Source of the DNA: Triparma columacea
Lineage: Eukaryota > Sar > Bolidophyceae > Parmales > Triparmaceae
Reading direction: 5' to 3'
NCBI GenBank assembly: GCA_030267965.1
Contig: BRYA01000540.1
Coordinates: forward strand, 1 to 30,730
DNA length: 30,730 bases
Positions 387-27,299 of this stretch are shown one piece after another. Positions within the stretch are counted from its first letter, which is position 1. Every line of letters begins with the position of its first letter. Position numbers and translations under genes: made by a program. The notes below the pieces were generated by a model. The model was not told the DNA's origin, searched no databases, and saw nothing but the letters and a program-made list of their open reading frames with translations.

Positions 387-3300
387 CTACAAATGTTGCT
401 GCCCTATTAGTTGTTCCCCATCCTCATCATCCTTCGGCATAACACTGCTTACTTTAGCCTTCCCACCTCCAACCTCTATAATGTCTCCACCATCAGCGCC
501 TCGAACACTTGCTCTCCTAATACTTGTTCTCAAAGCACCTAATAGACCACCCTCAGCTTCTGCATTGACACTTGCTCTCCTAACACTCTCTCTTTTTCTA
601 GCATCTCCTGCTCCTGGAATGTATTCAACAGGCACTCTTGCTTTCATAGCATCATCAAACCATTTTGGCTTCTCTTCCTCCCATCTCAACCAATTGGCCT
701 CTACCCAAGCTTTTACTTCCTTTTCATTTGCCTGCCAATGATGTTTTGAGTACTTAAATGTGTACTTTGCCTTGACAGCATCAGAACCCTCTTGAAAAAT
801 TTTTACTGTCAAGTCCTTACCCCTTTGAAAGCTGTAGAAGGTGCCCCAATATTTTTTCTCAATGTTGAAGAAAAATACTGCAAACAAAAATATTGTACAT
901 GGTATAAATATTCCAACTACTTTCCACGCCAATTTGAGCTTCTCCTCTGCAATATCTACTCTTTCAGCTACTAATATTGCTATTGGAAGACTTCCCATTG
1001 TCAACACAAATCCAAACATCCAATACATCCCTCCAACCTCATTAGGATGCCTAAACTGCACAATTGATGTAAAGTCTGTCACAACTTTCACCAACAGTCT
1101 GCCGACAATACTAAACACTATTTCAGTGTTGCCACCAACAGGAACCCAATACCAAAAGTCTCCTATCAAGATCTTCACCAACAAGTATAGACCAAGATCA
1201 GCACCAATATAGAGAGTAACCCATCTACTGCCAAGTAGCCCTAACACAACTATTGTCATGCACCTTATCACAAGCATACCTGCACTAAAGAGCATCATTG
1301 TAACAAATATTATAGATCTTTTTGTTGGATTTGCAGGCACATACCCATAGAAGTTAGGCACTTCCTCTCTCTTGATTGGGTCAGTGTCCCAGTCATAACT
1401 GATAGTTGCTGAGGCAAAGCCTGTGGTAATTGCTGACACTGCAACAGAAAGCCATGCTGAAGTTCCAACATCTTTGTCACTTGATGCTATAGCCATAAGT
1501 TGAATGATAACTCCGGGTATGGCCTCGGCAAACATTTCTGCCATCTTCATAGCTGTCATCTCAAACATTGGACTAACAGTACACCCAGCCTCATGTTTTT
1601 CGCCCTTTGCAACCCTGTAAGCATCAACAGCAGGCTTAAAGCCAATTAAAATAGGAAACCACTCCCTCGTGACCCTCTTCATCCCCAACTTTCTATTCTG
1701 ACCCCAAACAAAAAGCATCTGAATCCCAATTGACACTACCAAACTTGCGAAAGATGCCTTAAAGTACCCATACTTCTTATCATCCCAAAACATGTACGTC
1801 ACATACACATCAGTCACCAAATCAGTCATGCTTGTGACAGCACCAACAGTCACCCGTGCTTTCAAGCCAAAGTTTGTCTTAAGGAATAACTCCTTAACAA
1901 CAACCTTGAGCATTTGTCTTAGCCAGCCATGCTCTCTCATGACTTCTTGTACTTCAGAGTGCTTCTCTGCCCATAAACTTATTGCTTCCTCAACAGAGGT
2001 TGTAACTGACATGGTCTTTGTCAGCTCACTCCCGATCTCCCACCCCTTGGCTTCCTCCTCATTCTCATTCAAGCCCTCCTTCGCAGCATCCCTTTTCAGC
2101 TTGTTCCTCACCACAGCGCACAACATGGTTCCTACAAAATTGTTCTGCTCTACTAGCACTTTCAGTGCTTCATTGCTTGTGATGAATTCCTTTACAACCT
2201 CGACCTCACTCTTCCCTTGTTTCTTCTCCTTCAACCTTTGCATCAGCTGCTTGCCCAATTTTTTCCCATCTTCTATCAACAGTACACTGCTTACTTTACC
2301 CTTCCCACTTCCTACCCCTATAATATCTCCACCATCAGCGCCTCCAACACTTGCTCTCCTAATACTTGCTTTAAAAGCACCTGCTAGACCACCCTCAGCT
2401 TCAGCATCAACACTTGCTCTCCTGACACTCTCTTTCCTTCTAGCATCTCCATCTGCTGGAATGAACTCAACTGGCACACTAGCTCTAATAGCATCAGTAA
2501 ACCAATCTGGTTTTTCCACTTCCCACTTCACCCAATTTGCCTCTACCCAAGCTCTCACTTCCTCTTCAATTGATTCCCAATGGTGCTTTGACAATATAAT
2601 ATATGCTGCCTTTGTACGGTCATCTATTCCTTCCTTGAAACTCCTTGCTGATAAATCCTTACCCCTTTGCAAGCTGTAGAAGGTGCCCCAATATTTTTTC
2701 TCAATGTTATAGAAAAATACAGCAAACAACACAACTGTACATGGTATAAATATTCCAACTACTTTCCATGCCAATTTAAGACCCTCTCCTGCAACATCTC
2801 CCCTTTCAGCTACTAATGTTGCTACTGGAAGACTAGCCATCGTCAACACAAATCCAAACATCCAATACATCCCTCCAACCTCATTAGGATGCCGAAACTG
2901 CACAACTGATGTAAAGTCTGTCACCACTTTTACCAACAGTCTGCAGACAATACTACTCATTATTTCTGCATTGCCACCAAGAGGAACCCAATACCAAAAG
3001 TCTCCTCTTAAGACTTTCACCAACAAGTATAGACCAAGGTCAGCACTAACATAGAGAGAGACCCATCTACCACTAAGTAGCCCTAACACAACTATTGTCA
3101 TGCACCTTATCACAAGCATACATGTGCTAAAGAACATCATTGCAATAAATATGATAGATCTTTTGGTAGGATTTGCAGGCACATACCCATAGAAGTCAGG
3201 CACTTGCTCTCTTTTCACTGGGTCAGTGTCCCAGTCATAGCTGATAGTTGCTGATGCAAAGCCTGTTGTAAGTGCTGAAACAATAAGTGAGACCCAAGCT

Positions 3301-6300
3301 GCATCTCCAACATCCCCATCACTTGTTGCAATAGCCATAAGTTGGATAATCACTCCAGGTATTGCTTCTGCAAACATCTCTGCAACTTTCATCAAAGTCA
3401 ACTCAGTCAGAGCATCAAATGCCTGTCCAGCCTCTTGCTTTTCTCCCTTTGAAACCCTGTGAGCATCAACTGCAGGCTTAAACCCAATCAAAATAGGTAA
3501 CCACTCCCTAAGCACCTTCATCATCCCCAACTTTCTATTCTGTCCCCAAACAGTAAACATTTGAATCCCTATTGACACTGCCAAACTTGCCAAAGAAGCT
3601 TTGAAGTACCCATACTTCTCATCACTCCAAAACATGTATGTCACATACACATCAGTCACTAAATCTGCCATACTAGTAATAGCCCCAACAGTTACTCTCA
3701 ACTTCAACCCCCAAGGAACTTCCTCCAAAAGCCTGTAGCTAAGTGTCTCAAGCATAGGTCTGAACCATCCATACTCCTCATCAAGCTCCTGTAGAGCAGA
3801 GAAATTTAATATGAATGCATCAACTGCAGCAATTGGCTGAGTATTAACAGCTAAACTCCTTGCAAGAGACTCACCAACCTCTCTTCCATCCTCTTCCCCC
3901 AGCTCTGTAGCCTTACCATCTACCTTCCTTAACTTACTCAGCTTGTTCTTGAATATAGCACCAAGCATCGGTATGATAAATGCATACTTCTCTGCAGCCT
4001 CTCTCAGAACATAGTTTGACCCTATAAATGACTTGACCGCTTCCTCCTTTGTCATTCCCTTCTTCCTGAAAGTTATTGCAACCAACAGTTGCTCTCCCAA
4101 CAACTGACCTTGTTTTTTCGGATCTAAGCCTGCATAGTCTTGTGCAGTATCATTCACAGCATGTGAAGGAACCAATGCACCTCCGTTGTCCAAGCCAACA
4201 CTTGCTCTTCTAACACTTGCTCTCAAAGCACCTGCTAAACCACCCTCAGCTTCAGCATCAACACTTGCTCTCCTTACACTCTCTCTCCTTCTAGCATCTC
4301 CTGCTCCTGGAATGTATTCAACTGGCACTCTAGCTCTCATTACTTTATCAAACCACTCTGGCTTCTCCTCTTCCCATCTCTCCCAGTTAGCCTCAACCCA
4401 AGCTTTCACTTCATCTTCTATTGAACTCCAGTGATGCTTTGACATAGCCATGTGTGCAGCCTTTACTCCGTCGTCTTTCCCTTCTCTAAACCCTTTCATT
4501 GTCAATTCCTTACCCTTCTGTAAGCTGTAGAAGGTGCCCCTGTATTTTTTCTCGATGTTATAGAAAAATACAGCAAACAACACAACTGTACATGGTATAA
4601 ATATTCCAACTACTTTCCATGCAAATATAAGCCATTCGTCTGCAACGCCTCCTCTTTCAGCTACTAAGATAGCTATTGGAAGACTTCCCATTGTCAACAA
4701 AAGTCCAAGCACCCAATACATTCCTCCAAGCTCGTAAGGATGCCTGAACTGTACTATAGATGTGAAGTCTGTCACTGCTTTCACCAGTACTCTAGTTACA
4801 ATACTACTCAATATCTCTACATTTCCCCCTGCAGGAAGCCAATACCAAAAGTCTCCTCTTAATATCTTCACCAACAAGTATAAAAGCAGATCGGCACCAA
4901 CATAGAGGAAGACCCACCTACCACCAAGTAGCCCTAGCACAACTATTGTCGTGCTCCTTATCAAAAGCATACATGCACTAAAGAATGTCATTGAAGCAAA
5001 TATGATAGATCTCTTAGTGGGACTTGCAGGCACGTACCCATAGAAGTCAGGCACTTGCTCTCTTCTCACTGGGTCAGTGTCCCAGTCATAACTTATGGTT
5101 GCTGAGGCAAAGCCTGTAGTCAATGCTGAAACTGAAAGTGAGACCCAAGCTGCATCTGAAACATCCCCATCATTTGTTGCAATAGCCATAAGTTGGATAA
5201 TCACTCCTGGTATTGCCTCAGCAAACATCTCAATACATTTCATGAAAGTTAACTCTGTCAGTGCATCTATTGCTTGTCCAGCCTCTTGCTTTGCCCCAGT
5301 TGCAACTCTGTAAGCATCAACTGCTGGCTTAAAGCCAATCAAAATAGGAAACCATTCCCTTATCACCCTCACCATCCCCAACTTCCTGTTCTGTATCCAA
5401 ACCAAAAGCATTTGAATCCCAATTGACACTGTCAAACTTGCCAAAGATGCCTTAAAGTACCCATACTTCTCATCAGTCCAAAACATGCTCGTCACATACA
5501 TGTCAGTTACCAAATCAAGCATGCTTGTGGCAGCACCAAAAGTCACCCTTGCCTTTAAGCCTAAGGTAGACTTCATGAATAGTTTCATAGTTATCTCCTC
5601 AAGCATGGGCCTTAACCACACTTGTTCACTCATGACTTCTTGCATTTCATTGAATTGATGTGCCCATTCATCTACTGCATGTGCTGCAGTTGCTGTGGTT
5701 AACATGACTGCTGTCATTGCACTCCCAATCTCCCAACCCCTGGCTTCCTCCTCACTATTATCTTCTCCCTCACGTGTCGCTCTCCTTTTAAATTTGTTCA
5801 TAACCACAGCATACAGCATCGTTCTCATGAAACCATGCTGCTCTATAATCTCTCTCAGTGCCCTATTGGCGGCAATAAACTCACTCACTGCCTCTACTTT
5901 ACTGTCCCCAACTTTCTTTTTCTTCACTCTCTCCATCAGCTGCTCTCCAAACCTCCTCCCATCTTGTTCCCCTGCTTCAGTGCTCTTTAGTAGATTATCA
6001 AAGCAGCAAGCAGCGTCAGTTGCTATGCCCAGGTGCTTGAATACACTCTTTTTGCTGGCAGCCTTTTCTAAACCCTCCTGTCTAGTCATCATTTCAACAT
6101 CTGTCTTCATCTGGCCAGCCTCTGAGAACCTTACAGCTGTGAAGTGCCCTTCATGCTTAACTGTGATTACAAGTATCTTGTTGTTAACTCTGTGAAGCTT
6201 AAGCTGGGATTCAACTCCATTTTTAAGGCCCCAGAAGAATGCTGCAACTTCCTTGTGGGATGCTCTCACAGTTATTGAAGTCTTCCCCCAACCCATTCCC

Positions 6301-9300
6301 TTCTCTGCCTTTATCAATGTCTGTCCAGTTAACCCACTACTGATCTCTTGAGCTCCTTGAATCTCGTCAAAGTGACTTTCAATCCCTGGTGCCCCCTCAA
6401 TTGCAATCGCCTTGAACTTTTTCATAATTTGCTGTCTATTAAAGGCTTCATTCTCTTTGCTCTTATCAAATTTCTTTCTCAAACCTGAGACTAATCCGAG
6501 AAACCTTGGTGCAATCTTGTTCATGACGGAAGAGAAGAATACACCACCAAGGTCTACCTTTGTTGTAAAAGTCACTGATGTTTGTGGCACACCTCCAAGA
6601 GGGTCAAGCGGCTCAAATACCCATACTGTGTGTGCCTTCCCTAAAACATTCCTAGCCTTCACTGGAAAGTCTTCATGAATCGCCTCTGTGTCTGTAACAT
6701 CAATAAAAACTTTGCCATCATGTTGCTTGAACCAGGTAATTTTACTCCTCCCATCACGAGGAGCAAAACCAGGGAGACCAAGGTCTCTTGTTGTGATGTA
6801 GTAGAGAGTGTGGGGGTTCACATTAATGGTTTTTAAGAAAGTCAGTCCCCATTTCTTTAAATCAGTTCTGGTCTCCCTGTTGTTCAATACTGATATTTGT
6901 CTTGCAGCACATTCCTCCACACTCGCATCAACTACAGTAGTGGCAAAACCAGTGCAAAGACTTTCCCCATCAACATGAACTAGCTTCATCTTGACCCTCT
7001 CATCAGGACTCTTCAAATCGTCAAACTTCTTATCATCTTTGCACTTCTCATAAAACTCCTTCCCCTTCCTGATTGCAACCTTCTCCTCATCTGTATAATC
7101 TTGGGGTTCATTCTTGATGATGTTGGCAAGAGTGGCCAGTGCAGCTTTATCGAACTCTTCCTCTTTTTCGAAGCTCTCAATTGCACTCTTCAAAACCCTC
7201 AATACCTTTGGAGTATGTTTTTCCACCAACTTTGCAGGCACATAACCCCCGGCGTCAACATATTGTATTAGCACTATCTTGCATTGTGGAAAGCCGTTGA
7301 TTTCCTGGGTGTTGGTGATTGTGAATATTGCCTTTGTTGTGCCTTTTACTAGCTTTCCTAATCCTCCATAATCAACTTTCTTGTCAATTGACCACACAGC
7401 AACAGTCACACAGTCAGTGTTGTTTCTCCTCCAAATTAATCTCTGGACAAATTCTCTGTTAGTAATTGGAAAAGGGAATTTCTTCACTGTTGCAAACTTC
7501 TTCTCATTGGTCCTCTCAGTCACTTCCCTGATCTCTAGACGAGCAAGTTCTCCTTTTGCAAGTCCCTTGGTGGTTCGTTCCCTGCTGCAGTACTCAAAGA
7601 ACCAAGCAGCTGCCTCCTCTGCAGTGCAGTCTGCCACTCCGCTAGCCTTTCCTAGTGCAATGCTCCTTTGCCCTTTCTCCTGCTGCTTGTACATGATCTC
7701 CATCTTCACTCCCTCGTAAGGTGACTTGAGAGGCCCCCACCCTTCTTTATCCTCCCCACCAAAGAGCTTCTCCAACTCCCCAAACACCTTCTTCTGGTCC
7801 TCTTCCAACTCAACACCCTCCCTCATCCTCTTCACCAAGGCCCCCCTGACCTCAGCATCAACCTTCTTCTCATTCCGCCTGAACTTCTCCTGCATTCTGT
7901 TGGCCTCAACAAGCTGATTCTTTGCAAGGTAGTCAATGGCATTGTCCATCAGTGTCTTTTGAAGGCCTTTGAAATGCAGATCAACTGTCTGAATACGTGT
8001 CACCCTACAGACATTTGGGGCAATCTCATTGAAGAAGTAGACACCTGTAGTCTCTGCTAGCACAAATCCTTCCTTACTGAGGTCCTTGAAGCCTCCTCCA
8101 GGGTACTCTTTCAGTGGCACAAAAGCTAACATGTATGAAGTCCGGCTGTTCTCAAGTTTGACTTCCTTCCACACATACCAATTCTCAAATAGTCTATTGG
8201 TGGCGGCAGGGACCTTCACGCCAGCATGACAGTGCATGCTTCTAGTTCCCTCAAAATCATTCCTGATCACCCATGGTAAGTTCCCATTAATTTTTAATTG
8301 CTTCTCAGATAGTGCAAGTGTGTCAAGCAGAAATTGCTCTGCCAACACAGCCTCTGCTGACTTGTCCACAGTGACGCCAAAGGCTGCCCACACATTGTCC
8401 CTCTCTCTCCACAGGAACTTGTCGATGCCCTCCTTCAGTGTCCCCTTGATTCTCTTCCCTTTTGTGTGAAATTCCTTCTCTAGCCTCCCAACCCTCCCCA
8501 ACATTGCGTCCTCCTCTCTTGTCAGAAGCGGTGCTCTTGGCATGACCTCCTCCACAAAGTGTATTTTCCTCCTCTCATCAATGAGACCAGGCTGTCTGAA
8601 CTTCTTCCTGACTTCCTCCATAATACCCTTTACTGCTGCATACGCAGCCTTGACGTCGCCCTTGATGATCCTGCCACTGTTCCAGCCTTCAACCCTAGAT
8701 CTCGTGGATCTCACACTCTTGAAAGTAGGACTTTTCATGGAAGTAGGGCGCACACTCTTAAAGCTTTTGAATGTGCGAACATCAACTTCTGATTTCGTCT
8801 CTAATGCTCTCTCCTCTGCCTGAAGAGTTCCCACCACAGTGACTGCAGTTTGTCCAAACTCAAAGTCAGTGAAGCTGAGCTTGCCATTAATGACACCTTG
8901 TTTGACAGTCTTGGTCTTTATTGACGCTAGAATTTTGACAAGCATCGCAGTTGCCTCATCAGAAAGATCGTCCTCGTCAAGGGGTGCCAACTCCATAATG
9001 TTCGTCGATTTGTCAGGAGATACAACTTTGACGTCGAGGAGAAATTCGACAAACTTATTCCCGATGCTGTAGTGCTGCCAGTAGACGAGTCGGTGAATGA
9101 CTCCTTCCTTTTCGTCATACTCCTGGAGGGTCTTCCTTCGGAACTTGCCCTGCTCACAATCGGTGAGGAGAAAGTCAATGATCTTGTCGCGCTCATCGTG
9201 GAAGACATCAGCAAGCTCCATAACCTTCACATCGACGCCGGTAGAGTTGTCTGTGAGGCCTTCAACGGCTCCGCGGTCATCCAGAAGCTTGACAAGTTTG

Positions 9301-9806
9301 CCTTGTTCGGGTCCAAGAGCTGCAAAATTGATATCTACGGGGCCGTGTATTGCGGAGGGTGTGTGATTGGGGCTGGAGAGGAGCTGCGGGGGGTCTTTGT
9401 TCCTTGCGATGTTGTCAGGATCTAATGTCATGGACTGAGCGGCAGTGGCGAGGCTGTCAGTCGCAAGGCCGAGGGTTGCGCACCCAACAGCCCTGTCAAT
9501 CTCCTCATCAGTCTGGGTGGCTCCATTGATGCCTGCAAGGGACGCTTTGTTTCCCTCGGCTTTTTCCTCCATCGAATTTTCGTTGCCACCGAGGCCGTCG
9601 AGAGGGTCGTCGACGCGAAAAACCTGTCCATTCTCCATATTATTGTCGTCGATAGAGTCAATACCATCTTCAGGAGCACCAAACATCCCCTCGCTCACCC
9701 CGCTTGCAATGTCGATGGGTTTTCCGTGGTCCTTGAGGCCATGCTCGACGTCGATGCTGGCTACAATGTGCTTGTCCGCCTGCTGGGGGCTGTCTTTAGT
9801 GCTCAT
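387..9806 (-). CDS. Giant START-like / XKR-like multi-pass membrane protein
   Basis: A single uninterrupted reading frame encodes about 3,139 residues from the ATG at 9806 (MSTKDSPQQ). An in-frame ATG at 9902 and a TTG at 9998 would extend it by 32 or 64 residues, and an unseen upstream exon is possible. The N-terminal ~200 residues are acidic and polar. Then come helix-grip-like repeats resembling START lipid-binding domains, at about nt 8410-7930, 7730-7140 and 7000-6480, plus a shorter one at 6400-6100. Their signatures include FPFPITNREFV and QYVDAGGYVPAKLVEKH. Three membrane modules follow, each with about seven or eight hydrophobic segments and the motifs DLVTDVYVTYMFW, AEAIPGVIIQLMAIA and SYDWDTDP. 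The layout recalls XK-related phospholipid scramblases: a TD motif in the first helix and an E..P..IIQL helix after a cytosolic loop. Each module ends with KHHW and RRxSV kinase-type sites. The frame and repeats are seen directly. The START match is moderately sure and the XKR match is a structural-pattern inference. Neighbouring genes have introns and this one has none. Confidence 0.8.
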   Translation of the reverse strand: MSTKDSPQQADKHIVASIDVEHGLKDHGKPIDIASGVSEGMFGAPEDGIDSIDDNNMENGQVFRVDDPLDGLGGNENSMEEKAEGNKASLAGINGATQTDEEIDRAVGCATLGLATDSLATAAQSMTLDPDNIARNKDPPQLLSSPNHTPSAIHGPVDINFAALGPEQGKLVKLLDDRGAVEGLTDNSTGVDVKVMELADVFHDERDKIIDFLLTDCEQGKFRRKTLQEYDEKEGVIHRLVYWQHYSIGNKFVEFLLDVKVVSPDKSTNIMELAPLDEDDLSDEATAMLVKILASIKTKTVKQGVINGKLSFTDFEFGQTAVTVVGTLQAEERALETKSEVDVRTFKSFKSVRPTSMKSPTFKSVRSTRSRVEGWNSGRIIKGDVKAAYAAVKGIMEEVRKKFRQPGLIDERRKIHFVEEVMPRAPLLTREEDAMLGRVGRLEKEFHTKGKRIKGTLKEGIDKFLWRERDNVWAAFGVTVDKSAEAVLAEQFLLDTLALSEKQLKINGNLPWVIRNDFEGTRSMHCHAGVKVPAATNRLFENWYVWKEVKLENSRTSYMLAFVPLKEYPGGGFKDLSKEGFVLAETTGVYFFNEIAPNVCRVTRIQTVDLHFKGLQKTLMDNAIDYLAKNQLVEANRMQEKFRRNEKKVDAEVRGALVKRMREGVELEEDQKKVFGELEKLFGGEDKEGWGPLKSPYEGVKMEIMYKQQEKGQRSIALGKASGVADCTAEEAAAWFFEYCSRERTTKGLAKGELARLEIREVTERTNEKKFATVKKFPFPITNREFVQRLIWRRNNTDCVTVAVWSIDKKVDYGGLGKLVKGTTKAIFTITNTQEINGFPQCKIVLIQYVDAGGYVPAKLVEKHTPKVLRVLKSAIESFEKEEEFDKAALATLANIIKNEPQDYTDEEKVAIRKGKEFYEKCKDDKKFDDLKSPDERVKMKLVHVDGESLCTGFATTVVDASVEECAARQISVLNNRETRTDLKKWGLTFLKTINVNPHTLYYITTRDLGLPGFAPRDGRSKITWFKQHDGKVFIDVTDTEAIHEDFPVKARNVLGKAHTVWVFEPLDPLGGVPQTSVTFTTKVDLGGVFFSSVMNKIAPRFLGLVSGLRKKFDKSKENEAFNRQQIMKKFKAIAIEGAPGIESHFDEIQGAQEISSGLTGQTLIKAEKGMGWGKTSITVRASHKEVAAFFWGLKNGVESQLKLHRVNNKILVITVKHEGHFTAVRFSEAGQMKTDVEMMTRQEGLEKAASKKSVFKHLGIATDAACCFDNLLKSTEAGEQDGRRFGEQLMERVKKKKVGDSKVEAVSEFIAANRALREIIEQHGFMRTMLYAVVMNKFKRRATREGEDNSEEEARGWEIGSAMTAVMLTTATAAHAVDEWAHQFNEMQEVMSEQVWLRPMLEEITMKLFMKSTLGLKARVTFGAATSMLDLVTDMYVTSMFWTDEKYGYFKASLASLTVSIGIQMLLVWIQNRKLGMVRVIREWFPILIGFKPAVDAYRVATGAKQEAGQAIDALTELTFMKCIEMFAEAIPGVIIQLMAIATNDGDVSDAAWVSLSVSALTTGFASATISYDWDTDPVRREQVPDFYGYVPASPTKRSIIFASMTFFSACMLLIRSTTIVVLGLLGGRWVFLYVGADLLLYLLVKILRGDFWYWLPAGGNVEILSSIVTRVLVKAVTDFTSIVQFRHPYELGGMYWVLGLLLTMGSLPIAILVAERGGVADEWLIFAWKVVGIFIPCTVVLFAVFFYNIEKKYRGTFYSLQKGKELTMKGFREGKDDGVKAAHMAMSKHHWSSIEDEVKAWVEANWERWEEEKPEWFDKVMRARVPVEYIPGAGDARRRESVRRASVDAEAEGGLAGALRASVRRASVGLDNGGALVPSHAVNDTAQDYAGLDPKKQGQLLGEQLLVAITFRKKGMTKEEAVKSFIGSNYVLREAAEKYAFIIPMLGAIFKNKLSKLRKVDGKATELGEEDGREVGESLARSLAVNTQPIAAVDAFILNFSALQELDEEYGWFRPMLETLSYRLLEEVPWGLKLRVTVGAITSMADLVTDVYVTYMFWSDEKYGYFKASLASLAVSIGIQMFTVWGQNRKLGMMKVLREWLPILIGFKPAVDAHRVSKGEKQEAGQAFDALTELTLMKVAEMFAEAIPGVIIQLMAIATSDGDVGDAAWVSLIVSALTTGFASATISYDWDTDPVKREQVPDFYGYVPANPTKRSIIFIAMMFFSTCMLVIRCMTIVVLGLLSGRWVSLYVSADLGLYLLVKVLRGDFWYWVPLGGNAEIMSSIVCRLLVKVVTDFTSVVQFRHPNEVGGMYWMFGFVLTMASLPVATLVAERGDVAGEGLKLAWKVVGIFIPCTVVLFAVFFYNIEKKYWGTFYSLQRGKDLSARSFKEGIDDRTKAAYIILSKHHWESIEEEVRAWVEANWVKWEVEKPDWFTDAIRASVPVEFIPADGDARRKESVRRASVDAEAEGGLAGAFKASIRRASVGGADGGDIIGVGSGKGKVSSVLLIEDGKKLGKQLMQRLKEKKQGKSEVEVVKEFITSNEALKVLVEQNNFVGTMLCAVVRNKLKRDAAKEGLNENEEEAKGWEIGSELTKTMSVTTSVEEAISLWAEKHSEVQEVMREHGWLRQMLKVVVKELFLKTNFGLKARVTVGAVTSMTDLVTDVYVTYMFWDDKKYGYFKASFASLVVSIGIQMLFVWGQNRKLGMKRVTREWFPILIGFKPAVDAYRVAKGEKHEAGCTVSPMFEMTAMKMAEMFAEAIPGVIIQLMAIASSDKDVGTSAWLSVAVSAITTGFASATISYDWDTDPIKREEVPNFYGYVPANPTKRSIIFVTMMLFSAGMLVIRCMTIVVLGLLGSRWVTLYIGADLGLYLLVKILIGDFWYWVPVGGNTEIVFSIVGRLLVKVVTDFTSIVQFRHPNEVGGMYWMFGFVLTMGSLPIAILVAERVDIAEEKLKLAWKVVGIFIPCTIFLFAVFFFNIEKKYWGTFYSFQRGKDLTVKIFQEGSDAVKAKYTFKYSKHHWQANEKEVKAWVEANWLRWEEEKPKWFDDAMKARVPVEYIPGAGDARKRESVRRASVNAEAEGGLLGALRTSIRRASVRGADGGDIIEVGGGKAKVSSVMPKDDEDGEQLIGQQHL
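481..5990 (-). repeat. Three in-frame tandem ~1.85 kb membrane modules
   Basis: The C-terminal half of the giant gene is a head-to-tail triplication. Module 1 covers about nt 5990-4190, module 2 about 4110-2330 and module 3 about 2265-481. The same landmark (DLVTD.YVT.MFW) recurs near 5490, 3632 and 1791, giving a period of about 1,850 bp. Membrane segments and the RRxSV tail are nearly identical between copies. The soluble lead-in of each module, with a [GK][EK]QL start and a W.RPML or W.RQML end, is much more divergent. Confidence 0.9.
6090..8410 (-). other. START-like domain repeats within the giant gene
   Basis: Several related segments share a START-like pattern. A W or F sits in a first helix after a conserved acidic lead-in (DCTAEEAAAWFFEY, DASVEECAARQ, ASHKEVAAFFW). 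A strand follows with FPITNREFV or TTRDLGLPGFAPRDG, then a late strand-helix such as QYVDAGGYVPAKLVEKHTPK or TTKVDLGGVFFSSVMNKIAP. The last copy (nt ~6400-6100) lacks the late strand-helix. START domains bind sterols, ceramides or phospholipids in a deep pocket, but the ligand here cannot be read from sequence. Confidence 0.6.
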
Positions 9807-10200
9807 TTTGACACTTAAATTGGCTTTCTTGATGTCTAACGGTTTGTAAGGGTGGATAAACGGGTTAGGTGAGCTTTGTAAGGAGCAAATTGAGCTTCGC
9901 ATGCTATTTACGACCAGTTCCAAGAAATTGCCAACAAGGCCCCCCTGTGTCCAACTGTGTTTGCCATCTGCTGTGTTCTTCAACACTGATCTCCACAATG
10001 AAAAGGTTTGCGAAGGTTTCGAAGCCTCACTTTCTCGTCATATTACCCCCCCACCCTCTCTGCGTCACTTACCTTGACGAATATGCTGTCCGCAAGCTTG
10101 GGTTTGAGCCTTGAGCAGGAGGGCTCAGGGCAGGAGGGACAATGTCGTGGTTGTTGGACGGCGGGGGAGTCAAATATGTAATGAGGTTCTGGTGGGAGTC

Positions 10201-10233
10201 NNNNNNNNNNNNNNNNNNNNNNNNNNNNNNNNN
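10201..10233. other. Assembly gap (33 N)
   Basis: A run of N joins the GC-richer upstream flank of the giant gene to an AT-rich island. Its true length and the correctness of the join cannot be judged from the sequence. Confidence 0.99.
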
Positions 10234-16501: not shown

Positions 16502-17404
16502 TTACAGAAATTCCAGAATAACTCTCCACATAACCTTCGGGAGCCTCTTGCGTGTCGCAGTTACCCCAAGTGTTTGCGCTTCACCTCCATCCTCTCGCTT
16601 CCTCTTTTTTTGGGTAGTAAAGAGTGTCTTGAGGCAGGACAGAACGGTGACGCGTTCACGTATGGCGTACCACCTAGAATGGAGAAGGGCCTTGACAGAC
16701 GGCATATTTTGATCAGCAGCGGCAGAGATTAGGGCAGTGCAGTTTAAGAAGGAGGTGTCACCGATGTAGACGGCAGGAGATAAGCTGAGTCTCGTCAGGG
16801 CGGTGCATGCCATGAAGGCGCCCTCGCAAATCGTCGTCACAGAGGCTGGGATTGTGATGGCTGCGAGGGAGGAGCATCCTTGAAAGGCCCAATTGCCGAC
16901 TGTCGTCACTCCGACTGGGATGGTGATGGCCGTGAGGGAGGAGCATACCCCGAAGGCGCTATCGCCAATCGTCGTCACTCCTTCCGGGATTGTGATGGCC
17001 GTGAGGGAGGAGCATCCTTGGAAGGCGCGAAAGCCAATCGACTTCACTGAGGCCGGGATTGTGATAGCTGCGAGGGAGGAGCAATCGCAGAAGGTGCAAT
17101 AGCCAATTATCGTCACTCCATCCGGGATTGTGATGGCTGCGAGGGAGGAGCATTCCCTGAAGGCGTGATCGCCAATCATTGTCACTGAGTCCGGGATTGT
17201 GATGGCTGCGAGGGAGGAGCAACCGTAGAAGGTTTCACGGCCAATAGTCGTCACTCCCTCTGGGATTGTGATGGCCGTGAGGGCGGAGCATCCGCAAAAG
17301 GCGAATTTGCCAATCTTCGTCACTCCCTTAGCAAAAGTCACCTCTGTGAGTTCACGATCATTCACAAAGCTCTCTTTGCCAGAGTATACTGCTGATTTGG
17401 GCAT
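16502..17404 (-). CDS. BspA-type leucine-rich-repeat protein, copy 1
   Basis: An intronless gene of 300 residues. After a short head (MPKSAVYSGKESF) it has eight 23-residue repeats of the form SLAAITIPDGVTTIGxxAFxxCS and a degenerate ninth (ALTRLSLSPAV). This is the LRR_5 / Treponema BspA-like type, known in bacteria and protists as surface or protein-binding solenoids. No signal peptide or membrane segment is seen. A basic cluster QKKRKRE could act as a nuclear signal. The last residues, RKRLPKVMWRVILEFL, are shared with the two neighbouring copies. The function is probably protein binding; the partner is unknown. Confidence 0.85.
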   Translation of the reverse strand: MPKSAVYSGKESFVNDRELTEVTFAKGVTKIGKFAFCGCSALTAITIPEGVTTIGRETFYGCSSLAAITIPDSVTMIGDHAFRECSSLAAITIPDGVTIIGYCTFCDCSSLAAITIPASVKSIGFRAFQGCSSLTAITIPEGVTTIGDSAFGVCSSLTAITIPVGVTTVGNWAFQGCSSLAAITIPASVTTICEGAFMACTALTRLSLSPAVYIGDTSFLNCTALISAAADQNMPSVKALLHSRWYAIRERVTVLSCLKTLFTTQKKRKREDGGEAQTLGVTATRKRLPKVMWRVILEFL

Positions 17405-17813: not shown

Positions 17814-18884
17814 TTACAGAAATTCCAGAATAACTCTCCACATAACCTTCGGGAGTCTCTTGCGTGCCTTAATTCCCTGAAGCGCGACCACTTCGTCTCC
17901 GTCAAGGTGCGAGTTCTGCTCCGGCGTATCCGATCTAGGCTGGTTCTCCAAGTCGTCATTCCAGGGTGTCTTGAGGCAGGACAGAACGGCGACGCGTTCA
18001 CGTATGCGGTGCCACCTAGAATGGAGCAGGTCCTCGACGGTCAACATATTTTGAGCGGCAGCAGCAGAGATTAGGGCAGTGCAGTCCAAGAAACAGTCGT
18101 TACCGATGGAGACGGCAGGAGATAAACTGAGTGTCATCAGGGCAGAGCATCCGTAGAAGGCGGCAATGCCAATCGACGTCACTGAGTCCGGGATTGTGAT
18201 GGCTGCGAGGGAGGAGCATTGAGAGAAGGCGCTATTGCCAATCGACGTCACTCCGTTCGGGATTGTAATGGCTGCGAGGGAGGAACATCCCCTGAAGACG
18301 CCACTGCCAATAATAGTCACTCCGTTCGGAATTATGATGGCTTCGAGGGAGGAACATACTAAGAAGGCGCGATTGCCAATCGTCGTCACTCCGTCCGGGA
18401 TTGTGATGGCTGTGAGGGAGGAGCATCCCCAGAAGGCGCCAAAGTCAATCGTCGTCACTGTGTCCGGGATTGTGATGGCTGCGAGGGAGGAGCATCTTTG
18501 GAAGGTGCTATTGCCAATTGTCGTCACTCCGTCCGGGATTGTGATGGCTGCGAGGGAGGAGCATAACAAGAACGCGTAATTGCCAATCGTAGCCACAGAG
18601 GCCGGGATTGTGATGGCTGCGAGGGAGGAGCATTCCCTGAAGGCGTGATTGCCAATCATTGTCACAGAGTCCGGGATTGTGATGGCTGCGAGGGAGGAGC
18701 ATTTCCCGAAGGCGCTATCGCCAATCGACGTCACTCCGTCAGGGATTATGATGGCTGCGAGGGAGGAGCATCCCCTGAAGGCATCCTCGCCAATCGTCGT
18801 CACTCCCTTTGCAAAAGTCACCTCCGTGAGTTCATCGTTGTCCCTGAAGCTCTCTACGCCAGAGTACACTGCTGAGCTGGGCAT
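17814..18884 (-). CDS. BspA-type leucine-rich-repeat protein, copy 2
   Basis: An intronless gene of 356 residues with ten 23-residue LRR_5 repeats plus the degenerate terminal unit. The head (MPSSAVYSGVESFRDNDELTEV) and the last 15 residues match the other copies. The stretch before the end is different: instead of the TTQKKRKR segment it has an acidic, polar sequence (NDDLENQPRSDTPEQNSHLD). Compared with copy 1 it carries two more complete 69-base units. No signal peptide is seen. It is probably a protein-binding solenoid. Confidence 0.85.
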   Translation of the reverse strand: MPSSAVYSGVESFRDNDELTEVTFAKGVTTIGEDAFRGCSSLAAIIIPDGVTSIGDSAFGKCSSLAAITIPDSVTMIGNHAFRECSSLAAITIPASVATIGNYAFLLCSSLAAITIPDGVTTIGNSTFQRCSSLAAITIPDTVTTIDFGAFWGCSSLTAITIPDGVTTIGNRAFLVCSSLEAIIIPNGVTIIGSGVFRGCSSLAAITIPNGVTSIGNSAFSQCSSLAAITIPDSVTSIGIAAFYGCSALMTLSLSPAVSIGNDCFLDCTALISAAAAQNMLTVEDLLHSRWHRIRERVAVLSCLKTPWNDDLENQPRSDTPEQNSHLDGDEVVALQGIKARKRLPKVMWRVILEFL

Positions 18885-19310: not shown

Positions 19311-19937
19311 TTACAGAAATTCCAGAATAACTCTCCACATAACCTTCGGGAGCCTCTTGCGTACCGCAGTTACCCCAAGTGTTTGCGCTTCACCTCCGGC
19401 CAGTCGCTTCCTCTTTTTTTGGGTAGTAAAGAGTATCTTGAGGCAGGTCAGAACGGTGACGCGTTGAAGTATGCGATGCCACCTAGAATGGAGAAGGGCC
19501 TCGACAGTCGGCATATTTTGAGCGGCAGCGGCAGAGATTAGGGCAGTGCAGTTTGTGAAGCAGTCTTCACCGATGGAGACGGCAGGAGATAAACTGAGTC
19601 TCGTGAGGGCGGTGCATCCGTAGAAGGCGCGCCAGCCAATCGATGTCACAGAGTCCGGGATTATGATCGCTGCGAGGGAGGAGCAACCCATGAAGGTGAA
19701 ATAGTCAATCGTCGTCACTCCAACCGGGATTGTGATGGCTGCGAGGGAGGAGCATTGAAAGAAGGCGTAATTGCCAATCGTCGTCACTGAGTCCGGGATT
19801 GTGATGGCTGCGAGGGAGGAGCATCCGATGAAGGCGCCTCTGCCAATCTTCGTCACTCCCTTTGCAAAAATCACCTCCGTGAGTTCATCGTTGTCTCTGA
19901 AGCTCTGTGTGCCAGAGTACACTGCTGAGCTGCGCAT
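19311..19937 (-). CDS. BspA-type leucine-rich-repeat protein, copy 3 (short, mosaic)
   Basis: An intronless gene of 208 residues with only four complete 23-residue repeats plus the degenerate unit. It is exactly 92 residues (four units) shorter than copy 1. The head (SAVYSGTQSFRDNDELTEV) and the part up to LLHSRWHRI resemble copy 2. From RVTVL onward it resembles copy 1, including TTQKKRKR and GGEAQTLGVTA, and it ends in the shared RKRLPKVMWRVILEFL. This suggests gene conversion between the copies. Confidence 0.83.
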   Translation of the reverse strand: MRSSAVYSGTQSFRDNDELTEVIFAKGVTKIGRGAFIGCSSLAAITIPDSVTTIGNYAFFQCSSLAAITIPVGVTTIDYFTFMGCSSLAAIIIPDSVTSIGWRAFYGCTALTRLSLSPAVSIGEDCFTNCTALISAAAAQNMPTVEALLHSRWHRILQRVTVLTCLKILFTTQKKRKRLAGGEAQTLGVTAVRKRLPKVMWRVILEFL

Positions 19938-21590: not shown

Positions 21591-22562
21591 TCATGCGGTC
21601 TTATTCTTCCTCCTCTGCGACCTTATGAGCTTAAAAATTCCCCAGCAGACCCCCCCTACTTCCAGCGCGGCGAGCAGCCACACGAAAGCTATAATTCTAT
21701 CGAACTCCTCCTTGCTATTGACCCTCGGCCACTCCCTCCCCTTAAACCCCGCTTCACCCGTACCCTCCTTCTCCTCAATCCCGAGGAACTCCATAACCTC
21801 ACCATACCCATCCCTCCCTGTCTCGAAAACCAGAAGCCTATCACTTGGCACAACTCTTTTCACATACTCGTTCCACCGCTCGTAAACTCCCTCCCCCTCC
21901 TCATCCGTCAATCCACATAGGTCCTCCCAACCCGTTATGTTGTCTCTGACGAACTTGCGCTTCATTACGTTGTCCAGCATTTCCCTCTGTGCCGACAGCC
22001 GGCTGAAAGGCAGCACGGGGAGCCACCCAACGAGAGACCAGGGGAGGCCCGAGGAACCGAACCGACAGATCGTAGACTTTATACTCCTCATCCAAGTCTT
22101 ACCGTTCCTCCTGATGGTTAGGATGAACTTGGCGTCAGGGAAGCGCCTCAAGAGCTCCTCGGGGAAGCTACTTAAAGGCCAGTCTACCCCGCTGTTGAAT
22201 TCCTCCATCCACCCCCAGTCGTCCTCCCCCCCCTTCGCCATGGCGTTGAACTTCTCCATGAAACCCCTGGTGTCAACACGGCTGCTATCAAGAGGGAAGA
22301 CCAGCTCCCTCATATGCATAACGGGGCCTAGCCCGAGCTCGGAAAGCGCGACGCGCAAGCTGTCAGTACCAGTTCTCCCAGGTCCTAGCCCGAACACTTT
22401 GAAGGGGAGAGAGGAAGGAGGGGAGCTTGGGGGAGGAAAGAAGACGGATTGGATAGAGAAAGGATAACCTGACGGTTTGTGATGTTCATCATTGATCATC
22501 TTCCACATCGTCTGTAGGCACAGGCAGAATGGAATGACGAAAAGAAGGTAGATGGTCGACAT
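21591..22562 (-). CDS. Sulfotransfer_4-like membrane protein
   Basis: An intronless gene of 323 residues from the ATG at 22562; a TTG nine codons upstream was not used. An N-terminal hydrophobic stretch (IYLLFVIPFCLCLQTMW) looks like a signal anchor. At residues 58-69 there is the PAPS-type P-loop GLGPGRTGTDSL. Then come GLGPVMHM, DWP at 127-129, and FPDAKFILTIRRNGKTWMRS, the 3'-phosphate-binding region. The later motif VVPSDRLLVFETGRDG and a C-terminal membrane helix (~289-312) followed by a basic tail complete it. This order is typical of the Sulfotransfer_4 family, common in algae, fungi and animals, whose substrates are mostly unknown. It is likely a Golgi or ER membrane enzyme. It diverges from the IFT139 gene across 345 bases and converges with the gene on its other side. 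Confidence 0.85.
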   Translation of the reverse strand: MSTIYLLFVIPFCLCLQTMWKMINDEHHKPSGYPFSIQSVFFPPPSSPPSSLPFKVFGLGPGRTGTDSLRVALSELGLGPVMHMRELVFPLDSSRVDTRGFMEKFNAMAKGGEDDWGWMEEFNSGVDWPLSSFPEELLRRFPDAKFILTIRRNGKTWMRSIKSTICRFGSSGLPWSLVGWLPVLPFSRLSAQREMLDNVMKRKFVRDNITGWEDLCGLTDEEGEGVYERWNEYVKRVVPSDRLLVFETGRDGYGEVMEFLGIEEKEGTGEAGFKGREWPRVNSKEEFDRIIAFVWLLAALEVGGVCWGIFKLIRSQRRKNKTA

Positions 22563-22907
22563 GCTCAGTATTTCCTCTCCTACGGACAAAACTACGCGCC
22601 CTCTCTCTCAACCGTCTGTCGCCTCCTAATCGCCCCTCTCCTTCACTAATTTGAGTACACCCCCTCAACTGAAATTAATCTGAGTCTCCCTCAAGTGCCT
22701 CAACCCAACCTCTTCCTCTTTAAATCCAAATTTTTTCCCCTTGGTAAGCTTAAGATCCTCCCCTACGTCCTTATTTCCCATTCACTTCTCTCACCCGTAA
22801 CCTCTACCCCCTTTACCCCCCCCCCCCACCCCTAGACACTCCAGCGTCCGTCACACCAGTCAAGCTTGGCCCCCCTCCCCCGCCCCCCCCTCCCCCTCCT
22901 CTCAAAA
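22563..22907. promoter_or_regulatory. Shared divergent promoter region, sulfotransferase / IFT139
   Basis: 345 bases between two divergent starts, C-rich towards IFT139 with a long C run near 22820. No defined TATA or other box was identified. Both promoters must lie here unless there are upstream exons. Confidence 0.5.
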
Positions 22908-25900
22908 ATGTCCTCCAAATCTCTCAAAGCCACAGTATCGTACCTCCTCCGCAACTCTTTCTACACCATCTCGTCCAACGAGTGCTCGGCTGAGTTGTCC
23001 CGTCGCGGAAATGACCCTTACATCCTGTACATGTCTGCCTTGAGTCACGCCCTCTCAGGGAAGCACAACGAGGCCCTGAAGCTCTTCGGGCAGACGGCGA
23101 GGAAGAGGGACCTGGAGTACCCGGCGCTCATAGCGATGAGGGAGGTCCACGGTAACATGAGGACCGTCGATAGGCATGAGATTGACGAGATCCAACAGAG
23201 GTGAGGGAGGACAGCTGTCAAAAGCATAGCTCTTCATTCACTAACTCACGCCCCCCCCAACCCCCAACCCCCAACCCCCAACCCGCAACCCCACCCCCCT
23301 CCACCTACCCCAGCCTCCCCTCCGCCGAGGACAACTGCTCCGAGGTGGGCTACCTCCTCCTGTCCACCTTTTACTTCCACATTTCCGAATACTCCCAGGC
23401 CAAGCGCTACATCTCTCGCGTGGTCTCCCCCTCCGGCGTGTCAATGAACCCGACCCAGGCACTCGCCCACAACCTCCACGGTTGGATAGCCCTTTATCTC
23501 AACGAGGAACTCTCGGAGTCCCTCGACATGCTTTCTGACCCTAGCATGGCCAGGGACCTCGACGCCCTCATGTGCAAGGCGGCGATCTACAAGAGGCAGG
23601 GGAGGGGGAAGAAGGCGCTGGACCAGCTCAACGAGGCCATCGCGCTCGAAAGCTGGTTCACACCGGCGCTCATTGAGAAAGGGAAGACCTTCCTCCAGCA
23701 GGGCGAGTGGGAGCAGGCCGAGGAGATGGCCCAGCGTGTCCTCAACGCCTCAGACGCAGCCAACTCCTCCGTCCAGCCCCTCGAGGCCCAGATCCTCGTG
23801 ACGGCAGTCAACATGGTGAGCAAGGGAACCGACGTCGTCAAGAGCATCGAGGACCTCTTCACCTCCCTCCAAGCCACCGAGATGGGCAACGCCAAAATCT
23901 ACCACTCCCTGGCCAAGCTCTTCTCCAGGCTCTGCGGCAGGAGCCAGGGCGTCCTCGAGTACACCGTGAGGATGATGAAGGCCGCGATCGAGAGCGACCC
24001 GAGGAGCGCTGAGTACCACAGCGAGCTCGCGTACCAGCACAGGCTGCAGGGGCAGTATGGACTGGCACTTGACACGTACAGGGACGCGGCGAAGCTCGAC
24101 GAGAGCAGGTGAGAATGCATAAAGGGGGGAGGGGAGGGGGGGGGGGGGGCAGGCGAACTTTAACCCTAACTCAGCGCTAACGCAACCTAACCTACAAATT
24201 TTCGCTTCCCCCCAAAAAACAGCGCCCACGCCATGATAGGGAGCATATACTGCCAGATCATGCAGGGGGGACTGGAGGACGCGGAGCAGCAGCTCGAGTT
24301 CCTCAGCGTCGTGCAAGGGGAGGGGGAGGAGAACTCAGAGGTTACCATGATGAGGGCTCTGCTGGCCATTAGGAAGGACAGGGACAACGACAGCCACCTC
24401 AGGCTCCTGGACGAAACCGTGGAGAAGTGGGAGAGGGAGAGCCAGGAAGTCGTGAGCGACGACGTCTTCGACGAGTACAAGACCCTCAATCCCGACGTCA
24501 TGGTCGAGATCGCCAAGGAGTACCTCCAGCACCTCCACTCCCCCTCCAACGTCATGACTGGTGGATCGGCCGACACTGTTCCGCCGGCCGTTGTCTCAGG
24601 ACTTGCTCTCCTTGAAAAGGCCACCGGTCGCGTCCCGGCCCTCCTCGACGCCCACCTCGTCGTCGCCAAGGCCAACTTTGAGATGAAAAAATTCGACAAG
24701 ACCCTCGAGACCCTCAACCACTGCCTCTCCATCAACCCCGCCCACTCCGACACTTACCTGCAGCTCGCCCAGCACCACCTCGCCAAGGAGTCCTTCCGGT
24801 CCGCCAACAACTGCCTCGAGCAGGCCATGTCCTATGACTTCAAGATAAGGAACTCCCCCATCTACCAGCTCGTGAAGTCGGAATGCCTGGCCAACCAGGG
24901 ATCCCTCGACGAGGCCATGAATCAGCTCGAAGACGCCATGAAGCTCCCCGGCGTAAGGGACGGACTTAACGGGACGGTGTCAATCAGCGACAGGGTCTCC
25001 ATATTCGTCAAGCTCGCGGAAATATATTCGCGCCTAAACATGCTCAGCCAAGCAAACGAGGTACTTTCAGAGGGAAAGGCGGCGTTCGAGGGCACAGCGG
25101 AGCAGGTGAGAATTGGCGATTAAGAAGCTTTTAAGATGCCATGCGCCCGCTCTCCCCCCTCACCGCCTCCCACGCACCGCCCCACCCTCCGCCGCAGATC
25201 CGAATCCTTGTCGCCATCTCCGACCTCGCAATCAAGAAGAACGACTTCACGTCCGCCATCAATATGCTCTCCTCCGTCACTCCCGAGTCATCCCTTTACA
25301 CCCACGCCGTCGTCGCCAAGGCGAACATCTACCTCAAGCATAGGCATGACAAGCAGGCCTTCGCCCAGTGCTACCTCGAGCTCATACAGGCGAAGAAGTC
25401 CGCGGCTTCCTACGTTCTGCTCGGGGAGGCGTACATGAAAATTCAGGCCCCCGAGTCCGCAATCGAAGCCTTTGAGAACGCCCTCCGCTACAACCCCAAA
25501 GACTCTCGGCTTGCCGAGAAGATCGGCAAGGCCCTCGTCTCCACCCACGACTACCGCAAGGCGCAGGACTACTACGACAATGCGCTGCGAAACATGCCGG
25601 ACAACATCACCCTCCGCTTTGACATGGCGAGGCTCTACACGAAGCTGCGCATGTTCAACGACTCCGCCAAGACACTCGAGAAGGCCTTAAGCAATTTCGA
25701 CGCGGAGGACGAGGAAGGAATCAACCCCCCCCACGTCAAGGTTCTCATCAGGGATGTCAAGACGCTGCTGCTCCTCGTCGAGACCTACAAGGCTTCGGGG
25801 GACAAGGCCGACATGAAGAACACCCTCCTTAGGGCCCGCAACATCCAGAGGATGGTCATGGAGAAGGTGAGAATGGATCGAGAAAAGAAAGAGGATCGCT

Positions 25901-27299
25901 GTTGCGTACGCCCGCTGACGCAACAGCTTTAACAGTCAAACCCTCAAACCCTCTAACGCCCCCCCCTCCCCCTACTCGCTCGCTGCAGTCCCACTCTGCC
26001 GGGGAGAGCAAGTCCGCGCAGAGGACCAGGGGTTCCGAGATCAACTACATGCTGGCGCAGTGCGCGGAGGACGACAAGGACGACGACTCCGCGATCGACT
26101 ATTACAAGGAGGCCCTCGAGAATAGCGTCCACGAGCCCTCAATGCTGTCCCTCTCGAAGGTCCACCTTCGCAAGCACAACATCAAGGAGTGCGAGGACAT
26201 GTGCAACTCACTCCTTCGCGTGGCGACGAAAAAGGAAGAGGCTTCCATGATCATGGGAGACTTGCTCTTCATTAAGGGAGAGTACGAGAAAGCCACCATC
26301 CAGTACCTCAACTTGCTCGCCAAGAACCCCAACAACTACGTAGCTATGGAGAACATCGTGAGTCTGCTCAGGAGGGCAGGGAAGCTCAAGGAGGTGCCCG
26401 CTCTCTTCGAAAAAGCAGAGACAAAGGATCCGAGGTCCTCTTCTCACGCTGGGCTCTACTTCTCCAAGGGTCTGTACTACCGTTACACGAACAATATCAT
26501 GGACGCCATTAAGCAATTCAATCTAGCTAGGAGGGACGGGGAATGGGGCTGCAAGGCGCTTGAGAATATGGTTGACATTTACATCAACCCGGACGGTAGC
26601 AACTTGTGGGATGATGGGGAGGGAGGGTCTGACGGGGCCAGCAGGGAGAACGTCAGGGTGGCGGAGAAGCTCCTAAGAGAACTTGAACAGCTTGGGCCAA
26701 GGACCCAGCGCCTCGTCTACCTAGAGAACTTCCACCTTCTTGCTACCCAGGAAAAGGACAACATCAACCGGGCCATGGTCTCCTTTACCGACATCCTCGA
26801 GAACGACAAGGACAACTTGCCAGCGATGCTTGGGGTTTCGACAGCGTACATGATAGAGAAAGCCCCAAATAAGGCGAGGAATTATCTAAAGCGCATGGCC
26901 AAGATGCCCTACAATCAGGAGTACGCAGAGGAGTTCGAAAAGGCATATTTGATGTTGGCAGACATTTACATTGCGAGGGGGAAATTTGACCTTGCTCAGG
27001 ACCTCTGCAAGAAATGTCTGAGTTTCAACAAAAGCTGCGCCGGGGCTTGGGAGCTCATGGGGGTCATTATGGAGAAGGAGCAGAGTTACAAGGACGCGGC
27101 AGAGTGCTACGAGAAGAGTTGGAATTTTGAGCATCAGGCGAGCGCTACCGTTGGCTTTAAGCTAGCCTTCAACTACCTCAAGGCAAAGCGATTCGTTGAG
27201 GCAATCGACATTTCCAACAAGGTGCTAGCGCAATACCCAGACTATCCCAAGATCAGGAAAGAGATATTAGAGAGAGCCATGGAGGGCCTCAGACCGTAA
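22908..27299 (+). CDS. TTC21B: Intraflagellar transport protein 139 (TTC21B homologue)
   Basis: Five exons: 22908-23200, 23314-24108, 24223-25105, 25198-25866 and 25989-27299, in phases 2, 2, 0 and 0. They encode 1,316 residues, about the length of animal TTC21B. The start ATG has A at -3. Tetratricopeptide repeats run through nearly the whole protein. Strong family signatures are AHNLHGWIALYLNEE and ESWFTPALIEKGKTFLQQGE. Others are RSAEYHSELAYQHRLQGQYG, LNPDVMVEIAKEYL, and near the end FNKSCAGAWELMGVIMEKEQ, FKLAFNYLKAKRFVEAID and the terminal YPKIRKEILERAMEGLRP. IFT139 is a subunit of IFT complex A, which drives retrograde transport in cilia and flagella. Its intact state implies a flagellate stage. 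All four introns are 92-122 bp and have GTGAG donors. Confidence 0.95.

Follow-up and report, generated by a model that had tools for sequence, protein, structure and literature searches.

One open reading frame on the minus strand of contig BRYA01000540.1 of the tiny marine alga Triparma columacea (assembly GCA_030267965.1) encodes a giant protein in which START-type repeats are followed by three modules with the predicted fold of the XK-related (XKR) family. The contig positions analyzed, 1 to 30,730, are referred to as the window. We consider it probable that the product is a giant Parmales membrane protein, in which a cytosolic array of five START units and three XKR-fold, scramblase-type modules carry or sense lipid and re-equilibrate it. 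The combination of START with XKR appears to be new, and both constituent families were already known.

The frame spans 387..9998 and has 3,203 codons counted from a TTG, or 3,216 from stop to stop. Its start codon is likely the ATG at 9806, which is residue 65 in the TTG-based numbering used throughout. The first-pass annotation placed the gene end at 9806 and called the gene intronless. The ATG at this position is real, but the open frame reaches 9998; likewise, "intronless" holds for the frame 387..9998, but an additional exon may lie upstream, given a GTAAGT close to 10070 and an N run at about 10201-10233. This gap in the assembly, located some 200 bases 5' of the frame, falls within a 1-kb stretch at 35% G+C. 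A chance frame was ruled out because relatives have homologous open frames and the ratio of nonsynonymous to synonymous divergence (dN/dS) among paralogues is well below 1, and a pseudogene was ruled out by the mostly open frames of the family together with the dN/dS values. The features of the protein are as follows.

387..9998, minus strand: whole open frame, 3,203 codons from TTG.
8811..9230, minus strand: START-type repeat 1, short (residues 257-396), from the secondary structure of predicted model m3b3ff85b9a0a; no match to a solved structure among the rows shown.
7884..8519, minus strand: START repeat 2 (residues 494-705), from secondary structure; Pfam START lies near the equivalent place in P0008 (over the cut-off) and P0006 (below it).
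7152..7808, minus strand: START repeat 3 (residues 731-949), matched to solved structures.
6450..7103, minus strand: START repeat 4 (residues 966-1183), matched to solved structures.
5997..6350, minus strand: START-type repeat 5, shortened (residues 1217-1334), matched to solved structures.
4119..5969 (core 4305-5582), minus strand: XKR module 1 with N-terminal soluble helices and tail (residues 1344-1960), from Pfam XK-related, alignment and our own hidden Markov model (717 bits).
4149..4310, minus strand: tail of module 1, with RRES, RRAS and RRAS, sites of basophilic-kinase type.
2274..4118 (core 2454-3731), minus strand: XKR module 2 (residues 1961-2575).
2298..2459, minus strand: tail of module 2, with RKES, RRAS and RRAS.
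390..2273 (core 612-1889), minus strand: XKR module 3 (residues 2576-3203), from alignment and our own hidden Markov model (702 bits).
456..617, minus strand: tail of module 3, with KRES, RRAS and RRAS.

The three copies of a membrane module proposed in the first-pass annotation are borne out by the recurrence of both motifs that it named, DLVTD at residues 1495, 2112, and 2726 and AEAIPGVIIQL at residues 1593, 2210, and 2824, within a repeat unit of 614 to 617 residues whose three cores are 75 to 78% identical. Their assignment to the XKR family, made there from motif pattern, is upheld by both profile and fold. The Pfam XK-related profile matches the window protein in three stretches (E 3.7e-12, 46.3 bits against a cut-off of 24.8), module 2 passes the cut-off alone (27.0 bits), and 13 of the 14 module cores in alignment A1 match at E up to 0.1; this alignment used 14 of 23 listed module stretches, and three of the 14 are from the window. 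With the 54 rows of alignment A2 (51 returned proteins plus the three window modules), the structure of module 2 (window 2364-4118) was predicted at a mean local confidence (pLDDT) of 85.2 and a predicted template modeling score (pTM) of 0.81. Another membrane fold had been named as the alternative, and five solved XKR chains rank first, far above all others: the top five Foldseek matches are XKR9, XKR4, cleaved XKR9, XKR8, and XKR8 (probability 1.00 each, E 6.8e-5 to 2.6e-2; sixth row, probability 0.07), and VIA-align gives XKR4 24.4, XKR8 23.4 twice, and XKR9 23.3 and 21.7, with the next chain at 7.3. The helix list of the model is compatible with eight spans and a pair of half-inserted helices, as in the description of XKR9 (PMC8298096).

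Six XKR8 residues, D26, D30, K134, E137, E141, and R183, are required for scrambling (PMC8500837). The first five correspond to positions 23, 27, 115, 118, and 122 of the first row of A1 and have equivalents in every module of the window protein: D1495/D1499/K1587/E1590/E1594 in module 1, D2112/D2116/K2204/E2207/E2211 in module 2, and D2726/D2730/K2818/E2821/E2825 in module 3. The residues D, D, K, E, and E are invariant in 14/14 rows of A1 and in all 50 modules sampled from the organism's own genome; all 114 homologue modules retain D26, D30, and E141, while K134 is retained in 113 (one Arg) and E137 in 113 (one Asp). These three sets overlap.

The START-like repeats, counted as at least three in the first-pass annotation, number five in the secondary structure of the predicted model, all as START-type helix-grip units. 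The family assignment, likewise made from motif pattern, is supported on the model by its helix-grip fold and by fold comparison, which matched repeats 3, 4, and 5 to solved START structures. Pfam START lies over the cut-off at 35 places in the T. columacea genome, 17 of them in frames of 1,464 to 3,715 codons. START ranks among the domains most enriched in Parmales, Tetraparma gracilis having as many as 141 START genes, some of which are multidomain genes joined to "transporters" (PMC10328945), a likeness to the gene described here. The helix-grip fold and a weak StAR sequence similarity are shared with START proteins of the StAR/CERT/STARD4 type, from which the window protein differs in having five units in a row on a membrane-anchored chain.

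START and XKR parts are joined in relatives too. Searching for proteins similar to module 2 in its full-length context gave 16 matches, with Triparma laevis f. inornata, T. laevis f. longispina, and Tetraparma gracilis as named sources; P0002 to P0005 (JGI, ENA) have a START array plus two modules, and P0006 to P0016 have one module each by motif. P0006 to P0008 are MMETSP records marked complete that carry the START and XKR parts in one chain. These transcripts agree with the single polypeptide proposed at first and contradict the alternative of separate genes; together with P0002 to P0005, they also rule out a misassembled fusion. The exact number of modules in the window, three, could be affected by short-read assembly, but the modules differ by 22 to 25%. 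In a further Tetraparma gracilis protein, P0017, START and XKR pieces, both below the Pfam cut-offs, stand behind an ion-channel and a cyclic-nucleotide-binding domain. Two T. columacea proteins were also located in their own genome, P0063 with a 100% match over all 653 residues and P0138 with a 100% match over 893 of 1,481 residues, the remainder having no listed 100% match.

As in the first-pass annotation, joint lipid transfer and scrambling is an inference. In the mechanism that we favor, each module would have eight membrane-spanning helices, with the START array, all linkers, and the tails in the cytosol; since the number of spans per module would be even, the linkers and the START array would stay cytosolic and modules could be added without change of topology. 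The START units would most likely move lipid between a nearby membrane and the cytosolic leaflet of their host membrane, whichever cell membrane that may be, or act there as lipid sensors, and the XKR modules would then re-equilibrate lipid between the two leaflets. Clusters of Arg-Arg-x-Ser in the tails may form a kinase switch of the modules. At least one RRxS/T site occurs in 49 of the 53 module tails in the sampled frames, and such sites are 40-fold denser within 100 residues after each module than elsewhere; the tail form IRRASVG resembles Kemptide, the peptide of protein kinase A. XKR8 is activated through phosphorylation of its tail (PMC8500837).

The START array could instead sense lipid and thereby gate the XKR modules, with no carriage between membranes, making the protein a lipid-regulated scramblase. 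Regulatory use of START domains is known elsewhere, and the covalent tie of the START units to the membrane part, the shortness of repeats 1 and 5, and the signaling setting suggested by the domain neighbors of the START and XKR pieces in P0017 all speak for this possibility, which we hold to be unlikely but a genuine contender.

Several points weigh against a carrier-scramblase reading. The window protein itself has no Pfam START match with E up to 1, and sequence-only searches of the PDB found StAR weakly, at E 0.071, and rat XKR9 at E 0.42 with the protein and 0.2 with the 14-row profile; only one XKR chain falls below a Foldseek E of 0.001. In whole-protein Pfam scans of eight relatives, START is over the cut-off in two (P0008 and P0011) and below it in two (P0006 and P0017), XK-related is over the cut-off in one (P0009) and below it in five, and P0006 and P0008 have no XK-related match at E 0.01 in the whole-protein scan. 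Since so few relatives pass the cut-offs, their assignment draws on alignment to the window protein and to one another. Caution over the kinase switch is called for by the single-module transcripts, of which P0006, P0007, and P0104 lack RRxS/T in the tail and P0008 has one such site, RRMT. Synonymous codon differences across 48 modules are 0.14 and 0.20 in two tail windows compared with 0.23 to 0.41 in the 23 others, so that exchange of DNA between chromosome ends may account for part of the tail conservation; the tail DNA may be homogenized or under another constraint.

The remaining points concern scrambling as such. XKR8 R183 has no settled equivalent, the alignment having an insertion there and rat XKR9 itself lacking Arg at that column, and the PQL of the kink in transmembrane helix 3 (TM3) reads PGV, with variants, in which the Pro is invariant and Gln-Leu is not kept. 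Purified rXKR9 in liposomes gave no strong evidence of scrambling, so a shared fold does not equal activity (PMC8298096). The modules could thus be structural membrane anchors, ion pathways, or partners of another scramblase, and the unsettled R183 and the altered PQL are in keeping with this; but five pathway positions with only two single exceptions in 114 homologue modules, and none in 50 modules of the same genome, are hard to explain for a mere anchor, and we regard a nonscrambling role as quite improbable.

The gene belongs to a large family at chromosome ends. Pfam XK-related was found at at least 112 places in the genome (best 119 of 580 candidates scored), a module query gave at least 75 matches (best 75 of 783), and a START query gave at least 81 (best 81 of 773). 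With searches by P0138 and P0063 included, there are at least 232 family copies, defined by contig and strand, on 221 of 789 contigs; this count joins XKR-only genes of the P0063 type to START-XKR genes and leaves out three internal, more distant places (C528:27823, C470:4815, and C133:39666), P0063 tail matches of 39 to 66 residues, and some shorter P0138 pieces, all of these tail matches and pieces being on frames counted anyway. Among minus-strand copies, 95 of 96 have a match within 6 kb of the contig start, and in 9/9 plus-strand copies with a known contig end, the last match lies within 1.7 kb of it. Telomere arrays of TTAGGG occur at 133 sites, C464 having two of them (19.2 and 21.1 kb). 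In 58 cases, the nearest listed family match is 40 to 5,120 bases away with the 3' end of the gene facing the array, and no listed copy within 12 kb of an array points away from it; once later searches are included, 77 of the 133 have a family copy beside them (no new distances). A copy at every chromosome end was considered and rejected: of two telomeric ends read that had no listed copy, neither had a module in its first 3 kb. On the window contig, 386 bases lie between the contig start and the end of the frame, and they contain no TTAGGG array, which fits an end cut short in assembly.

Several side observations concern these contigs and genes. C75, C70, and C364 have TTAGGG at both ends, at lengths of about 67.7, 75.4, and 64.8 kb, and other contigs of about 54 to 127 kb have family genes or arrays at both ends; if such contigs are whole chromosomes, the 37.9-Mb genome would have several hundred. 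The nuclear scaffold N50 of T. laevis is 83 kb (PMC7427184). A shorter chromosome-end form has one XKR module and no space for a START array (C15, C246, C690, the right end of C75, and others), with frames of 696 to 849 codons in 14 of the 16 best P0063 matches. The locus L039 (C248:52000-60026) has an XKR module on either side of about 1,400 residues that include a START array. The stretches examined of the internal, more distant XKR-like genes L009 (C528), L010 (C470), and L011 (C133) show no START similarity, and L009 is the genome's best single place for Pfam XK-related. The module tail (456-617, 2298-2459, 4149-4310, and equivalents) looks, by its synonymous uniformity, like a favored place of exchange across chromosome ends.

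Module number varies within the family. Among 26 frames (25 stretches plus the window), some of which are cut by stretch borders, 16 have two modules, three have three (the window, L023, and L028), one has four (L033), and the other six are incomplete because of a contig end, an N run, or a frame break. In two-module genes, nearest-neighbor modules share the same position in 26 of 34 cases, and mean module identity is 0.70 and 0.72 within positions and 0.68 between them. This small difference makes it weak evidence that the module duplication may be older than the spread of the family. Median dN/dS is 0.24 for modules (1,225 pairs, 50 modules) and 0.34 for START arrays (120 pairs, 16 arrays), rough values given nonindependent pairs and a median dS of 0.95 and 0.70, respectively; the calculation excluded L019 and L027 (N runs), modules below 500 bits, and three pairs for which no dS was obtained. 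Values in this range speak for most copies having been kept as proteins. A stop codon occurs in one of 75 module-match rows and in none of 81 START-array rows, and two rows of the P0138 search have one stop each. A variable-surface-protein reading was rejected: amino acid differences peak before the last span (0.57), yet they are 0.46 to 0.54 in parts expected to be cytosolic, giving no clear surface signal.

The family could also be mainly a by-product of chromosome ends, linked to telomeres, spread and homogenized by end exchange, with many copies silent or redundant. The placement of the copies at contig ends, 3' outward wherever checkable, and the low synonymous variation in the module tails would be expected from such a history; the open reading of all but one of the module matches and of every array match, and dN/dS far below 1 at these synonymous distances, would not, and we consider this account improbable. 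Joining the carrier-scramblase reading to the chromosome-end position yields a bolder proposal that we offer tentatively, as an unlikely one: the START units would load lipid, tandem XKR modules would flip it in a modular dose, Kemptide-like RRASV clusters would let a cyclic-nucleotide-dependent kinase open the modules, and the several hundred diverged telomere-adjacent versions would be a recombining reservoir of membrane-remodeling variants, for example, for naked flagellate versus silica-plated stages.

The nearest known systems are animal ones, and XKR-type proteins have been studied mostly in animals. The window modules share with XKR8, XKR9, XKR4, and XK the Pfam family, the XKR fold, and the charged path of TM1 Asp-x-x-x-Asp and TM3 Lys/Arg-x-x-Glu-x-x-x-Glu; unlike animal XKR proteins, they stand in tandem on one chain, PGV replaces PQL, and each is preceded by an extra soluble helical part and followed by a conserved tail. 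VPS13A and XK at contacts between the endoplasmic reticulum and the plasma membrane are a proposed lipid carrier-scramblase pair in animals, and a transfer protein that supplies lipid to the cytosolic leaflet alone would be expected to require a scramblase in the membrane that receives the lipid (PMC9436381). The likeness is a lipid carrier working alongside an XK-family protein; VPS13A, however, is a bridge-like chorein protein bound through a PH domain (PMC9436381), whereas the START units of the window protein are covalently fused. Pfam found no chorein domain in the window protein among matches with E up to 1, so the comparison with VPS13A, drawn in the first-pass annotation, stands as an analogy and no further. 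In the open-licence literature, we found no paper joining START domain, XKR, and scramblase, nothing on subtelomeric with XK-related and START domain, and none on XK-related scramblase with stramenopile, XKR scramblase with choanoflagellate, or PF09815. In PMC10328945, "scramblase" and "telomer" occur 0 times in the main text and section 7 names no XK; its Supplementary Data 4 may list the combination.

Elsewhere in the window, 69-base tandem repeats lie at 16797-17326, 18155-18806, and 19634-19858, and the frame at 17814-18884 encodes a BspA-type leucine-rich repeat protein (PF13306, E 3e-104). A Sulfotransferase domain (PF17784, E 2.4e-39) is found at 21591-22589, and successive plus-strand frames at 23201-27299 match TTC21 ARM/TPR domains and are probably exons of one gene.

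The natural joining of START to XKR lets the coupling of lipid transfer to scrambling be tested with a single purified chain. The finding also puts XKR-type proteins in a stramenopile, where at least 232 copies were listed, and reveals a telomere-adjacent gene family in an alga whose assembled chromosomes appear very small.
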